Positions 4,918 through 11,325 of a stretch of DNA of 64,000 nt are shown in pieces; the first letter of the stretch is position 1; each line of letters opens with the position of its first letter. This stretch comes from Hyaloscypha bicolor E (Eukaryota; Ascomycota; Leotiomycetes; Helotiales; Hyaloscyphaceae). The notes under the pieces were generated by a model. It ran no database searches, was not told the origin of the DNA, and worked only from the letters and a program-made list of their open reading frames with translations. Where the stretch lies: positions 1,883,762-1,947,761 of the forward strand of contig NW_020194667.1 of the NCBI RefSeq assembly GCF_002865645.1, given 5' to 3'. The position numbers and the translations under genes were made by a program.

Positions 4918-6493
4918 GAGATCGAAAGCAGAACTTTGCGAGCCGAGCGGGTTTTCCTTTTCCTTCCACTAGACATTAGAGCGATATAAAGGGGTGAGGG
5001 GAAGTAATTTAAATAGAACATGTTGCTAGAATTCACCAGGCCGGGTGAATTTGTTAAGCAACATAGATGGCAAAAGGAGCTTATACGAGGAGAATAGCAC
5101 ACCAAGTTGAGTACACTCAAAGGTTCTAGTCTTGTAAGAGCAATGGACATTTAGGGCTATAGAATGTTCTATGTGAACCAGGTACAATGAAAACCAAGGA
5201 CTGCAACTATACCCATCAAGCAAGTGCAAGGAAAATCGAAGACTGCATGAGGTTGAATATGAACGAAGTAGAATGAGAATTAAGTCCTGGGCAAGTTTGA
5301 TGAATTGTAAGTACAATTCAACTCAAACCTTGTCACGTTATCCCTTCGAAATCGGAGGCTCTCAAATGTTCCATGTTAAGCAAGTACAATCAATAGACAG
5401 ACCGCCAAAGAGGAAAGCGAGAAGAAGATCGCGATTGTTGGGAGTCGGTCGAATTTAACCTAAAAATGAAGCTAGATCCCGAGATCCACCACCTAGAGGC
5501 AAGATTGAGTGATAGATTTCGGTGCTCAAGGGCCTCGAGGTGGCAGCAGGGCAGAGGCAAGAAGATCGTCGAGCTACACAGATTGCGGAGGGGGTTACCT
5601 GGAGCTCCGAGAGGAAATGAGACGGCTTCATAACCGCGAGGTCAAGTTTCTAAAAGAAAGGTTGAGGGTTTGACAAGCCGGGCCTCGACAGGAGCTGTGG
5701 ACAGGTTACAACGGGACACCTTTGGGCTTTATCTTTTTCTCTCAGGCGCTCATACTGCCCTTGAACTCAACTCCCAGCCAGGGAGTGACGAGTCCAATGA
5801 GATGGCAGGGCAATAGAGGTCTTTAGAGCAATCAGGGTAGCACTGGTCGAGAGCAAGACATGCAGAAGAAACCGGGCCCTTATGGGTAGGCTAAAGTGCT
5901 CTATTCCCGGATGCAATGTTGCGTGCTTGGACACGGACGCGGGTAAGCTGGCATTTGTCCAACACGCCCTCTCCAGCCACGCAGGTCAGATGGCCTCCAC
6001 TAGAAGCAAGAGGAACCGTCCACTGCCCGGTTACAAGCATGTGTCCACCCAGCACGTGATCCCATCCCCCTCCGCAAGGCATTTCGATAGGGTTCGACGA
6101 CTTTGCCAAAGAGTCAGAGTTGTGGAGGGGAACACAGTCTCACACCAGGGTTGATTACCCTACAGTAGTCTTGAGTGAGCAGAATTGCTCGGATTCGAGA
6201 AAACACTACAAGTCTTGGGAGATGATAGAGATACACATCGCTTTGAACCACCCGGCTCAGTGGGACATGATCTATGTGCAGCAGGCACAATGAAAAGCAA
6301 GGGCTTTCAAGAATACAATACACGGTAAATACATTGCGGAAATGGGGATCAAAGGGTGCAGGAATGTAGTGAGGATAAACTCATCCTAAGAAATATATAC
6401 TACATCCACCCATTTCTATCAGCAACAGTACTCATCGACAGCCCGAGCAAGCAATGCAATCACCAATCTTCTTCTCCTCGTCCCTTTCCATAT
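4918..6493. other. 1.6-kb intergenic region with degenerate repeats
   Basis: This lies between the RING gene start and the vma-1 stop. No convincing gene was found. An open frame at 5882-6154 (+) has two cysteines and two histidines in a finger-like order but no other support. The region contains diverged copies of a short unit (see the repeat entry at 5171-5250). Confidence 0.5.
5171..5250 (+). repeat. Degenerate short direct repeat
   Basis: Two diverged units lie side by side (about 5177-5208 and 5217-5250). They share the pattern CAgGTaCAAtGAAAAcCaA followed by GACTGCA. A third related copy is at about 6270-6303 (CTATGTG..GCAGGCACAATGAAAAGCAAGG) and a weaker one at about 5371-5393. They may be remnants of an old repeat. 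Confidence 0.4.
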
Positions 6494-9400
6494 CTACTCA
6501 TCAGTGACAGAGGCAAACTTGTCAGTCATAGCTTGGACCAAATCCTCATACTATAGCCTGTCAGCGGAATTTCAATCATGGAAAGTGATTAGACATACCT
6601 TCTTCGTGATCACCTCCTCACCCTCGCTAGGAACCTCGAATTTCATGCTTCGGAGCTGCGATTGGAGCTCACCAGTAGCTTCTCGAACCTTGTTCCAGTT
6701 GGCACCTTGAGCAACAGCCTTCTGTGCCTCATCGTGGAAACCCATCATTGCCTTCATCATCCATTCAGTCTTCCAGATGGGACAGAATTGGTCGTAATCA
6801 CTATAACCATTCTGTTGCAAGAAATCTTCCTTGATCAAAGCAGCCACATCGAGAGTGATCTTGTCGGGATCGGACAAAGCGGACTTTCCGACCAATTGCA
6901 CGACCTGGTCCAATTCCTCAGAATCGGAGAGCAGCTGCTTGATACGGTCTCGAAGTCGAGGGAATTCGGGGTAATCCTTCTCATAGTACTTGTCGAGAAC
7001 GTTGGTGTACTTGCTGTAGCTGACTGAGGTGTTTATTGAGGGGAAATGTTTTCGTTGAGCGAGCTTCTTGTCGAGACCCCAGAAGACCTGCACGATACCA
7101 AGCGTACTACTAGTCACGGGATCTGAGAAATCACCACCAGGAGGACTGACGGCACCGACAATGCTGACACTTCCTTCACGATTGGGGCTACCAAGAGCTT
7201 GGACTTTTCCAGCACGTTCGTAGAAAGAAGCAAGCTTAGCACCCAAGTATGCAGGGAAACCTTGATCAGCAGGCATTTCTCCCAAACGACCAGAAATTTC
7301 TCGAAGAGCCTCAGCCCATCGAGACGTAGAATCAGCCATCATGGCAACGTCCTTGCCTTGATCACGGAAGTACTCGGCGACAGCTTATGAAACGCAATGA
7401 TTAGTATGTGTAAGGATGAACAGTATGATGCTGAAGCGAAGGTGCAAGGAGGGGGGAGGAGTATCTTACTTATTCCTACATGAAAAACAATGATTAGCTC
7501 GTGTAATAAAAGATTAGCGTGTGTTGAGGATGAACAGAATGAAATGTGTGATGAGACAGCGGCCAGAAGCAGATGCCTGATGATACAGCAGCCAGTATGC
7601 GATGTAAATGAACAGTGTCGATTGTGCGATGTTTGATGGACGGCGTCGGAACGATGGCAAAACCCAAAATAGCAGGAAATCGAGGCTCCCGATTTGTAGT
7701 GATATGCGATAAGAATAAGCAGCAGCACTGAGAGACTTATTGAGAAGCCTGAGCTTCTCGGGCCGCCTTCTTGTGGGATGGAGTGTTCTTGTGACGATTC
7801 AAGTCCCACTCAGTCCCGAAGCCTTTGTTGCAGGTGTGGCAATGGTGTTTGCCCTTGGCTTTAGCTTTGGCGCGCTTTGTTTTCCTATTGATGGAGTATT
7901 GGGATGTCTCGGACTTCTCGGTTCCGGCCGCCCGATTCGCATGGCTTTCACTCGCCAGATGTTTGTCCAGTGCGGCCTGACTCTGCAAGGGCATCTCGCA
8001 GACACCACAATAGAAGCGTTGCTCGGTTTTGGCTTTGGTTTTGACTTTTTTTGCAGTCTTGTTGACTTTGTCTCTGTGCTTCGCAGCCCAAGCATTCTTC
8101 TGTACCCGGCCATGTGCACGGAAGGCATCTGGGTCTTTTGCTTTCTTTGCTAGCCGCCACTGTGAAATGCGTTTGGCATCGTGCTCTTTCCTGAGGTGTG
8201 CGATAATCTCAAGTTTATCTGGACTCAAGTCTAAATTCCCGAGAATCTTTTCGCGGAGAGGCAGATGTGTGCCGAGAGGCTCCCACTCTACCGTCTGTCG
8301 TTCCCAGAGCAGCACATCTTGGTACAACACATCTGAAGTAGATGCACGCGAGGCGTGAAACAGACATGTAAAGATTGCTTCAAGTAGTAGAAACCGAGCT
8401 CGAACCCGGGGAACAAGGCCTGCAGACGGTAACGGTGTCCAGCAAAGTGGACCTTGATGTGAAATGTGGTAGCCTTGACGAAATGCTTCACGCACGAGCC
8501 GAGGAAGCATGGCGTGACCGGGTCCATAGTTCTTAAGCCTATCCGAAACTCCAAGAGTGGCATCGGTACCAGAGCCAACATACAGCTTGGGGTTGCAGCC
8601 AAACTTCTCCATAGTGATGCCATAGATTGCCCACACTTTACAAACAGGCTTCGGCAAAGACTTAAAGAAGCTGATTCCAGGAGGCTCAGAGCGGGTGAGA
8701 ACGTCTTGCATGTCTGGTGGGAATTCAAGAGGTGAGCATGCGGCTATGCTGTCGTATGCGGAGCGTGTGTCGAACAGAACTTTGAAGCTCGGGTTGAGAT
8801 ACCAATCGGGTGCAGTTATTTGTACAAGCTTCCATGTCATGTCTTCGACCATCCGTTGAACAGCATCGAGGTTGAGGAGATCGCCTTCGTCGATGTCCAG
8901 ATCGTCGAACTCTTCAGAGCTGTCATCGGTGTTGGAACCGAGGTCCTCGATTTGGACGCCGTCCGAGTCAATTGACTCGGTCTGCTCCGAGGCTTGCTTC
9001 ATGTCTTCAACCCGTAGGAATCAGGGCTACCGATTCTTGCCACTCGGTGCTGTTAGCGAGAGTGCAGCGATGGGAGCAATCTCGGAGAACTTACCTCTTT
9101 GTATAACCTCTTTTAAACGAGACTTCAATGAGCTCAGGTGAAGGCAGCTGGGGAGATCTACAACAAGATACTCCTCCAATGATCTTCTTGCACACAGAGA
9201 CGTCGTTGAGGTCGATGGTCTGATGCTCGGCGGATGATGATGAAGAACATCTTCTGGGAGGAGGACGACATATCGTCGTCGTATTGAGAAGGCAGGTGCA
9301 AACCACTAGGTCTGAAGGCAGGCGCTATATGCAGAAGGACGGTGCTGAAGGGAAGGTGCAGAGAGAGGGATTATCATACCAGTGTAAATAGAAGCTTCTC

Positions 9401-10562
9401 GAGCAGCAACAGGCATATTCGAGGTATTGGCAATGAGCGTGGTACGCTTCATGATTGGCTCCTTTCGTCCATTAACATCAATGGATAGCTCCGGGAAATC
9501 CATCAAGACTTCAGCCATTTCATTGCCACGTTCTCCGCATCCTACGTAGATGATGATATCGCTGTTCGAGAATTTGGATACGGATTGTGAAATGACGGTT
9601 TTACCGCAGCCGAAAGCTCCGGGAATGGCGACGGTCCCTCCTTGAACACTGGGGAAGAGAGCATCCAACACACGCTGACCGACAACGAAGGGCTTGTCCG
9701 CTGCAAGTTTCTCGGTGGTAGGGCGAGGAACGCGCACCGGCCACTCATGCATCATGCTGAACTCGGTCTTTTTGCCATCGAATTCAACCTCCAAAATCTT
9801 CTCGTCGACCTTGTAGCTCCCCTTTTCCGCAATTCGAGTGATTGTACCTCTGGCTCTGGGTGGAAGCAGGATCCTGTGGTCGTCCAGTAGAGAGTTTTCG
9901 TAAACAGTACCCCAGATGTCTCCACCAGTGATATGATCTCCGACCTTCATCAAAGGCTTGAAATCCCAGCTCTTTTCTCTGTTCAAAGCTGGCGCAGAAA
10001 TACCCTTAGGGATGTAAATGCTCTTCGACTTGTCCGCAATGTCTTTGAGAGGCCGCTGAATACCATCATAAATAGTTTCCATCAAACCAGGTCCCAATTC
10101 GACAGACAAGGGCTTTCCGGTTCGAACGACAGGGTCTCCGACAGTAACACCAGCTATATTTAATCAGCACTATCCTACACATTTTCCAGAGATATCCCAT
10201 ACCCGTCTCCTCGTATACTTGGATTGTAGCTCTGTCCGCTTCGATTCGAATGACTTCGCCGACGAGGTTATCGTGACCGACTTGAACCTGGGAGATGTTA
10301 GCCTTGTGCCACTGACCTCGAAGTTTCGTCCGTACCAATTCGTACATAGCAACACCAATCATGTTCTCTGCCACCACGACGGGCCTGCACACAGTCAACA
10401 TCGGGGTATCAACTTGCATAAGAGCATAGCATACCCAGAAACCGAGTAAATCGAGCCTGCATAGCTACCATTAGCTTGAGTTTGCACTGCTGGGGGATAC
10501 TGAGACATGCCATATTGCTCCTCTCCATCTGCATCTCTGGCTACTTCCTTCTTTGGGGCCAT
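6494..10562 (-). CDS. vma-1: V-type proton ATPase catalytic subunit A
   Basis: Seven exons give 627 codons: 10562-10435, 10384-10336, 10287-10203, 10153-9380, 7475-7470, 7383-6599 and 6550-6494. The product is the ATP-hydrolysing subunit of the V1 sector, which acidifies vacuoles and endosomes. Visible marks are [11 protein letters not shown] near the N-terminus, the P-loop G-A-F-G-C-G-K-T at about residue 265, [14 protein letters not shown], and the [20 protein letters not shown] block. The C-terminus ends FASVTDE. Five introns are 48-86 nt. Intron 4 (9379-7476) is 1904 nt and contains another complete gene on the same strand. Exon 5 is only six bases (GAATAA) and is needed to restore the family sequence YTGITVAEYF. 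The open frame continues upstream of this ATG to another ATG at 10784 (74 more codons); I chose 10562 because MAPKKEVA resembles family N-termini. The site that carries the yeast VMA1 intein (after YVG) is uninterrupted. Confidence 0.95.
7384..7469 (-). repeat. Short vma-1 intron related to the large intron
   Basis: This 86-nt intron (GTAAGATACTCC to CATAAG, branch-like ACTAATC) matches the two outer parts of the 1904-nt intron 4, which lies only six exonic bases upstream. It reads as the empty form of the same intron. Confidence 0.7.
7470..7475 (-). other. vma-1: 6-nt vma-1 microexon (GAATAA)
   Basis: The bases GAATAA are flanked by TGTAG upstream and GTAAGATA downstream. Splicing them between exon 4 (ending TACACTG) and exon 6 (starting CTGTCGCC) gives codons for Y-T-G-I-T-V-A-E, which is the universal subunit A sequence. 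Skipping them keeps the frame but reads Y-T-A-V-A-E, losing the conserved Gly-Ile-Thr. Confidence 0.85.
7476..9379 (-). mobile_element. Large ORF-bearing spliceosomal intron (candidate mobile intron)
   Basis: Intron 4 of vma-1 runs from GTATGATAATCCC to CATGTAG. Its two ends resemble the 86-nt intron 5 next to it. The 5' ends share GTA(T/A)GATA, then TCC, then GCACCTTC(C/G)CTTCAGCA. The 3' ends share CTGTTCATCCT, then CTAATCATTG, then TTTCAT. The large intron therefore looks like a copy of the small one with about 1.8 kb inserted in its middle. The insert carries the nuclease-like gene at 7737-9002 with its own spliced leader (intron 9094-9050). Introns of this size are rare in such genomes. 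Mobility is inferred; no target duplication was tested. Confidence 0.5.
7737..9002 (-). CDS. GIY-YIG-like nuclease with two C2H2 zinc fingers, nested in vma-1 intron
   Basis: A single 421-codon exon starts at the ATG at 9002. Residues 1-60 are acidic. Residues 124-160 resemble a GIY-YIG core: W-A-I-Y-G-I-T, then K-L-Y-V-G-S-G-T with a GVSDRL segment. Y127, Y141, R155 and E208 are placed as the expected catalytic Tyr, Arg and Glu. Residues 280-330 are strongly basic. Two C2H2 fingers of the H-x5-H kind follow (C332, C335, H348, H354 and C388, C391, H404, H410), separated by a Lys/Ala-rich linker. GIY-YIG domains make single- or double-strand DNA cuts and are typical of homing endonucleases; the fingers and basic linker would bind nucleic acid. 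A 45-nt intron (9094-9050) lies in the leader. An in-frame TGA just upstream fixes the ATG as the earliest possible start. Activity is inferred. It could instead be a domesticated or free-standing nuclease that happens to sit in an intron. Confidence 0.75.
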   Translation of the reverse strand: MKQASEQTESIDSDGVQIEDLGSNTDDSSEEFDDLDIDEGDLLNLDAVQRMVEDMTWKLVQITAPDWYLNPSFKVLFDTRSAYDSIAACSPLEFPPDMQDVLTRSEPPGISFFKSLPKPVCKVWAIYGITMEKFGCNPKLYVGSGTDATLGVSDRLKNYGPGHAMLPRLVREAFRQGYHISHQGPLCWTPLPSAGLVPRVRARFLLLEAIFTCLFHASRASTSDVLYQDVLLWERQTVEWEPLGTHLPLREKILGNLDLSPDKLEIIAHLRKEHDAKRISQWRLAKKAKDPDAFRAHGRVQKNAWAAKHRDKVNKTAKKVKTKAKTEQRFYCGVCEMPLQSQAALDKHLASESHANRAAGTEKSETSQYSINRKTKRAKAKAKGKHHCHTCNKGFGTEWDLNRHKNTPSHKKAAREAQASQ

Positions 10563-11325
10563 CTTGGCCGGTTCCTCTGCAGGTTCTGGATAGATCGAAA
10601 GAACCGGAGTAGGAGGGGTTGAGAGGTTCTTGTCGGGGGACAAGGGCAATGGGGGGAGCTCTGCAGGCAGCTCTTCAACGAAGCTTCGAAATGGCTGGAC
10701 CGAGAGCTGGTCGATGTTGCGATTGCGGACGAGGTCGTATAAGGAAGGACGAGCTTTCAGACGGGGTCTAAGGCCAACGTTCATCAACCCGCACGATTAG
10801 GACGTTTATCAATTGGCCAGCAGTGTCGAGCTGGAGCTACGGGGAGGTCGTGCAGGTGCAGGAAGATAGCAGGCAGGATAGGTGCGGGCTTGGCTGGGGA
10901 CCTTGGCGAGAGCTTTAGCGAGGAGAAGAAGGACCTTCGATTCAAAGCCCCCACCACAGAGCGCGGGCAGTCAGTCAGTGAACATGAATTGTTGACATTT
11001 AAGTTTTGGCGAATTCTCCGATCAGAAGTTAGCATGTTCCGAGTGATAGTGAATATCATGTTAGTGAAAGTCAGTCCTGCATAAATAAACACAAACAACA
11101 CACCTGCACGCCTCCCTCCGAACTTTTCAATCCGCATCATCACATGGCAAGGCAAGGACCGCCTGGCTGTGATAACTCAGCACCTCGAGTTGCCCTGCAG
11201 CCAATGAGCACACTGTGCCGTCGGGAGATCTGACCCGCACGGTTAGCCCAAACCTGGACCTTGATAGCTTATGTTATGGCCAGCCCAGCGTTGACGACCT
11301 GGCTCAACTGCTGGCACAGACTCGA
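10563..11325. promoter_or_regulatory. Shared upstream region of vma-1 and gid7
   Basis: The two genes diverge from here. A CCAAT box is present at 11201-11205 (+), about 120 bp upstream of the proposed gid7 start. The vma-1 side (10563-10784) is open in frame with vma-1 and could be leader or an N-terminal extension. No TATA box stands out. Confidence 0.4.

Follow-up and report, generated by a model that had tools for sequence, protein, structure and literature searches.

The vma-1 locus

The DNA analyzed here, referred to as the window, is a 64,000-nt stretch of Hyaloscypha bicolor E, a helotialean leotiomycete (contig NW_020194667.1, positions 1,883,762 to 1,947,761), in which vma-1, the gene for subunit A of the V-ATPase, lies on the minus strand and harbors a putative nuclease gene within one of its introns. 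The upstream exon (9380..10153), whose upstream border was placed by reading, ends in ...EASIYT G, aligns to yeast Vma1, and matches TIGR01042 (V-ATPase_V1_A) with an E-value of 4e-299. It is followed by a spliceosomal GT-AG intron of 1,904 nt in phase 1 (7476..9379, minus strand). An open reading frame (ORF) of 421 codons plus stop (7737..9002) runs uninterrupted through this intron on the same strand as vma-1. The initial annotation had described the intron and its gene in these terms, and both are confirmed. It did not mention that an intron with these borders requires a 6-nt micro-exon, GAATAA (7470..7475), and a second intron of 86 nt (7384..7469), which resembles both ends of the big one. 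The downstream exon (6599..7383) likewise aligns to yeast Vma1.

On the minus strand, with slashes marking splice sites, the junctions read ...TTTACACTG / GTATGATAATCC ... TTTTTCATGTAG / GAATAA for the big intron and micro-exon, and GAATAA / GTAAGATACTCC ... TTTCATAAG / CTGTCGCCGAG for the small intron and the start of the downstream exon. The micro-exon is needed to restore YTGITVAEYF; when it is included, Vma1 reads YTGITVAEYFRD and the junction is gapless relative to yeast Vma1. The deposited Vma1 of H. bicolor E, 99% identical to that of the window, instead reads IYTAVAEYF, equivalent to a single 1,996-nt intron with the micro-exon skipped, and is not confirmation of the exact micro-exon splicing. 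The deposited Stipitochalara protein also has IYTAVAEYF, lacking two residues found in yeast and Cadophora, and Cadophora (P0152) has IYTGIT at the junction. Because yeast also has both residues, we consider the skip a likely annotation slip.

Other types of element were considered and rejected. An intein is ruled out by a stop that the exon frame encounters within the big intron (after ...LQT), by the nuclease's own start codon, and by the GT-AG ends. The vma-1 exon is uninterrupted by any intein, consistent with the earlier statement that the intein site is empty. A group I or group II intron was also rejected, as no self-splicing ribozyme core matched at Rfam gathering thresholds (0 matches in window positions 6400-11200 and at nine further loci). 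Removal of the GT-AG intron restores the vma-1 coding frame. A motif scan predicts a candidate leader intron for the nuclease gene (9050..9094, minus strand, 45 nt, GTAAGT...CTAACAG), which hints that the nuclease may have its own processed transcript.

The predicted intron-encoded nuclease

The 421-aa product comprises an N-terminal helical region, a core (8262..8636, residues 123-247) predicted to adopt a GIY-YIG nuclease fold, and a C-terminal arm with a basic linker and zinc fingers. Tyr127, Tyr141, Arg155, and Glu208, corresponding to the catalytic residues of GIY-YIG enzymes, are present and are conserved across the family in 141, 143, 143, and 144 of 145 sequences, respectively. The fold rests on structure prediction, and a second structural comparison, VIA-align, settled the modeled core as GIY-YIG. 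No GIY-YIG Pfam model appears in the matches of the 421-aa protein up to E 10, nor in the 25 of 70 families listed for 41 family members. We treated a profile match as a detection aid rather than as the structural definition of the GIY-YIG superfamily; the case for membership is therefore built on the fold and the residues, and is no stronger than the structure models behind it. A Foldseek search against PDB and BFVD returned nothing below E 0.001, and the best viral row (E 0.009) was named as a phage homing endonuclease. PHROGs matches comprised one weak zinc-finger family and others without names, and two peptide-pattern scans of viral contigs and one of prokaryotic contigs revealed no relative.

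The first C2H2 finger (7941..8015, residues 330-354, minus strand) is above the Pfam cut-off, and zinc-finger models matching this finger are the only Pfam models to exceed it. The second (7773..7847, residues 386-410) is sub-threshold (PF00096, E 0.013) and is a predicted finger fold only. Of the two fingers originally proposed, one is supported by its profile and the other by structure prediction. The proposed GIY-YIG-like core with Tyr, Arg, and Glu agrees with the conserved residues and the modeled fold.

Related copies in introns of conserved genes

Searches of the whole assembly (82 Mb, 76 contigs) identified eight strong copies of the nuclease (E at or below 9e-18), including the one in vma-1. 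All eight are in the sense orientation inside GT-AG introns of 1,139-1,904 nt in conserved genes: vma-1, mitochondrial aconitase, atp-1, MSH2, GCN1, SF3B1/HSH155, DED1, and glycyl-tRNA synthetase (GlyRS). Host identities were supported by NCBIfam (vma-1, aconitase, atpA, MutS family, DEAD-box helicases, and GlyRS) and by sequence matches to PDB (MSH2, vma-1, SF3B1, aconitase, DDX3X/DED1, and GlyRS). GCN1 is our reading of a match to a 2,898-residue PDB chain. That chain (8i9x, chain LR) is labeled ribosomal protein L19, perhaps a fused or mislabeled entry. Compared with solved homologues, six of seven host junctions are gapless (vma-1, SF3B1, aconitase, DED1, GlyRS, and RPC2, which carries a weaker relic) and that of MSH2 has a two-residue gap; the clathrin junction, typed without its split residues, was left out of the seven.

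Weaker relics occur in a 426-nt intron of RPC2 (fingers only), in two separate introns of the clathrin heavy chain gene (L067), and in an intron of an RNB-domain gene (E 0.0037) that we take to be SSD1-like, all in the sense orientation. The initial annotation had raised the question of whether homologues are found within introns of conserved genes or are all free-standing: the eight strong copies and four weaker relics do lie in such introns, which refutes the latter. Overall, relatives of the nuclease, intact and decayed, are present in introns of up to ten conserved genes besides vma-1, and of the 13 places examined, 12 lie within introns of conserved genes in the sense orientation. Beyond these 13, the searches returned weak hits at C56:690919 (fingers only, E 7.5e-4), C56:690619, C5:1757216, C6:173513, and C22:912477. 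The chance of a single orientation is P 0.008 for the eight strong copies and P 0.0005 for 12 of 12, a set that includes weak matches. Half of the eight strong copies are free of stops and shifts, and the other four are broken. The MSH2 intron also holds a truncated tandem second copy (L011:3328-4954).

A shared position in paralogues

The vma-1 and atp-1 introns are both in phase 1, and both directly follow ACTG. The junction falls in the same alignment column in vma-1 (TG/ITVAEYFRD), atp-1 (TG/CSMGEWFRD), and the atp-2 sequence (TG/LTVAEYFRD), where the slash follows the split glycine codon. In H. bicolor, atp-2 and vma-2 are uninterrupted at this paralogous position. Across the site, 28 of 38 nt are identical between the organism's own vma-1 and atp-2, 15 of them consecutive, a likeness that could plausibly allow the element to jump from one paralogue to another.

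A tree was constructed from 145 nuclease cores, after nine of 154 sequences (among them the H. bicolor DED1 and GRS1 copies) were dropped as too short. The midpoint root (0.962) separates every copy labeled vma1, atp1, or atp2 from the copies in aconitase, MSH2, GCN1, and SF3B1. Copies from both sides coexist in the H. bicolor genome. Given that the two sides split by target despite sharing one genome, the nuclease lineage appears to follow its target, indirectly suggesting the behavior that homing endonucleases would show. Many inner branches are poorly supported, however, the two copies from atp-1 do not group as sisters, and most tips carry no assigned host.

The nuclease family in other fungi

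Thirty-nine other proteins match the 421-aa nuclease, 15 of them at E < 1e-120, which excludes a chance origin of the ORF. The family comprises 147 proteins, and the genera of the named matches represent four classes of Pezizomycotina. Based on the precomputed Pfam column for all 147 proteins and reading of 37 sequences, host exons are attached to eight members: vma1 (1), atp1 (1), atp2 (4), and aconitase (2). In gene models, from which these junctions were taken rather than from DNA splice sites, the nuclease is joined to atp-2 near the shared site in Ascochyta, Elsinoe, Alternaria, and Elasticomyces, to atp-1 after APFT in a member of the Chaetothyriales, and to vma-1 after SIYTG in Cadophora. 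One aconitase model (P0104) joins it within about two codons of the position in H. bicolor aconitase, and another (P0093) joins it elsewhere. Public models P0014, P0018, P0026, P0060, P0126, P0093, P0104, and P0008 fuse the nuclease to exons of ATP synthase, V-ATPase, or aconitase; these fusions probably reflect misannotation brought about by the intron gene. PCK1 (P0025) and cpa2 (P0046, P0098) were rejected as hosts, since these are labels only and the sequences show no part of the enzymes.

These data bear on two alternatives. An assembly or annotation artefact, such as a chimeric contig, is extremely improbable. Nothing was found in its favor; the micro-exon skipped in the deposited protein points only to a likely annotation slip. 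Against it, the 90%-identity cluster of the nuclease contains nine sequences on six contigs, the longest of 1,901 bases and therefore none of them a contig of the H. bicolor assembly; a Cadophora gene model (P0008) shows the same arrangement; and seven further strong copies in the H. bicolor genome repeat the pattern. The second alternative is a static nested gene, in which an old nuclease with a host role, such as repair, is inherited vertically within ancient introns. Nested genes do exist, the vma-1 ORF is intact with a conserved active site, and models from distant fungi are joined to the same host genes. However, the paralogous position is empty in the organism's own atp-2 and vma-2, divergence is much more rapid in the nuclease than in its host gene (58.6% versus 91.7%), half of the strong copies are broken, a misfit with a gene needed by its host, and nuclease lineages track target genes rather than genomes. 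We consider a static gene improbable.

Intron sequence outside the ORF

Sequence similarity among the introns is not confined to the nuclease gene. The aconitase and SF3B1 introns have in common a 196-nt stretch upstream of the ORF (70% identity). In vma-1, the first half of the small intron resembles the 5' part of the big intron (9343..9369, minus strand), and its second half resembles the 3' part (7509..7542, minus strand), with scores reached in 1 of 2,000 and 0 of 2,000 shuffles, respectively. It is as if the nuclease cassette were seated inside a duplicate of the small intron at a distance of 6 nt. Only six occurrences of the 13-mer AAGATACTCCTCC are present in 82 Mb (reversed-pattern control, 0), and three of these are at nuclease loci: window positions 7455-7467 and 9165-9177, which form a perfect inverted repeat flanking the vma-1 ORF, and the atp-1 locus (G000:C46:1862889). 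The first 15 nt of the 86-nt vma-1 intron are also identical to those of the next atp-1 intron.

Such features could indicate an introner-like or DNA-transposon insertion, in which the unit transposes, creating or entering introns, with the GIY-YIG protein acting in a transposase-like manner and no allelic homing. Favoring this are the sequence common to two non-homologous hosts, the relatedness of the adjacent vma-1 introns, and the rare 13-mer. However, the inverted 13-mers do not mark the ends of the intron, the 13-mer at atp-1 has no partner, and no pair among the 25 of 26 inverted pairs listed has its arms at the two ends of the big intron. Searching the genome with the small intron recovered that intron alone, although absence there is weak evidence. 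Furthermore, the single homologous position in vma-1, atp-1, and atp-2, combined with a nuclease tree that follows the target, points to sequence-specific cutting. Introner-like elements multiply as introns in fungal nuclear genes and are short and without this nuclease gene, unlike the H. bicolor introns, which are about 1-2 kb and contain it. Elements of this type in fungi are named in PMC11889510. Overall, transposition is an unlikely explanation, though less so than a static nested gene.

A proposed spliceosomal homing intron

We conclude that the big intron of vma-1 is probably a spliceosomal homing intron residing in a fungal nucleus, with a probability of about 80%. The anatomy of the locus, the predicted fold, the conserved catalytic residues, the predominance of sense introns, and the common position in paralogues support this reading. 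The mobile intron proposed in the initial annotation is thus supported as the best explanation, with mobility itself a property that we infer, and it extends beyond vma-1 to a family in many genes.

Several observations weigh against homing. A relic at C16:211085 (L016) is interrupted by several stops, and a search of the surrounding 3.5 kb revealed no conserved exons. The tandem copy in MSH2 shows nonsynonymous and synonymous divergence (dN and dS) of 0.11 and 0.13 over 88 codons, with no constraint visible. Only the eight family members noted above, of 147, carry host exons, and some members are annotated as separate genes. The non-ATPase sites revealed no common motif by eye, and no formal motif search was made. 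Finally, the codons at insertion sites do not significantly exceed the remainder of the host protein in conservation (P 0.44, 0.35, and 0.16, and mean mid-rank 0.49, 0.46, and 0.40, for windows of 10, 14, and 20; eight insertions), in a test that used one distant homologue per host and omitted GCN1, atp-1, the second clathrin intron, the RNB gene, and 26 unaligned GlyRS residues. This would differ from inteins and group I introns, homing elements that PMC2814812 places in conserved codons.

Under the homing interpretation, we infer cleavage, homing by repair, sequence specificity, RNA splicing, and expression of the nuclease, in the following way. The spliceosome would remove the big intron, so that vma-1 still yields a normal pump subunit. 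The intron gene, expressed from its own or an unspliced transcript, would give rise to a two-part nuclease in which a GIY-YIG cutter is combined with a DNA-binding arm (the basic linker and two C2H2 fingers). This enzyme would cut an intron-free allele at or near ACTG/GAATAACTGTCGCCGAGTACTTCCGTGAT, which codes for an ATPase motif, and repair of the break from the intron-bearing allele would copy in the intron and its nuclease gene. Rarely, cleavage of a resembling stretch, whether in a paralogue or in some other gene, could open a new site (as in vma-1, atp-1, and atp-2, or in aconitase and SF3B1). Old copies would then decay, leaving broken nuclease genes within long introns.

Relationship to known mobile introns

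Mobility driven by a nuclease is classically associated with inteins and with introns that splice themselves. Enzymes of the I-TevI type combine a cutter with a DNA-binding arm that includes a zinc finger, as the H. bicolor nuclease is predicted to do. The catalytic fold and the Tyr/Tyr/Arg/Glu pattern are those of I-TevI and other group I GIY-YIG enzymes, whereas the carrier intron in H. bicolor is spliceosomal and nuclear, and its nuclease has an N-terminal helical region and classical C2H2 fingers. The same gene hosts PI-SceI, the yeast VMA1 intein, a selfish LAGLIDADG nuclease that relies on protein splicing. Its insertion point lies about 50 codons upstream of the vma-1 intron site. PI-SceI differs in being an intein with a LAGLIDADG enzyme, in contrast to an intron with a GIY-YIG enzyme in H. 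bicolor.

Two parallels are viral. Spliceosomal homing introns ("shintrons") were proposed in mirusviruses in 2025, with GIY-YIG in 132 of 334 cases; the paper states that such an intron-nuclease association had not been observed before, and cleavage and copying are a proposal there too (Nat Microbiol, PMC12768974). Shintrons resemble the H. bicolor introns in having GT-AG spliceosomal borders, an internal gene for a nuclease, specificity for particular target genes, and GIY-YIG among the nuclease types, and in lacking a group I or II signature. They differ in occurring in virus genomes, mostly in virion morphogenesis genes, rather than in housekeeping genes of a fungal nucleus with a C2H2-armed enzyme (PMC12768974). 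In the faustovirus E12 capsid gene, two introns carry GIY-YIG ORFs, similarly within one conserved gene; this is a giant virus, however, and five of the 12 introns are group I and the rest have non-canonical borders (PMC6247863). Full-text literature searches, with most subscription papers outside their coverage and with matches mostly judged by titles and abstract openings, identified no report of a cellular spliceosomal homing intron. What is new relative to mirusvirus shintrons is thus the cellular and nuclear setting, the conserved housekeeping genes, and the GIY-YIG/C2H2 enzyme.

More broadly, and with less confidence than for vma-1 itself, we favor the existence of a class of elements in Pezizomycete nuclei in which GIY-YIG/zinc-finger nucleases ride spliceosomal introns through conserved genes, switch to paralogous or new targets, and leave decayed introns in their wake, making homing a source of new nuclear introns. 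If so, homing would show how introns can be gained at chosen sites and would account for a class of very long introns and of mis-joined gene models in fungi, and the family would supply GIY-YIG/zinc-finger enzymes whose natural targets lie in conserved genes. As the family is fungal and many of its hosts are culturable, homing of spliceosomal introns in the nucleus becomes testable.
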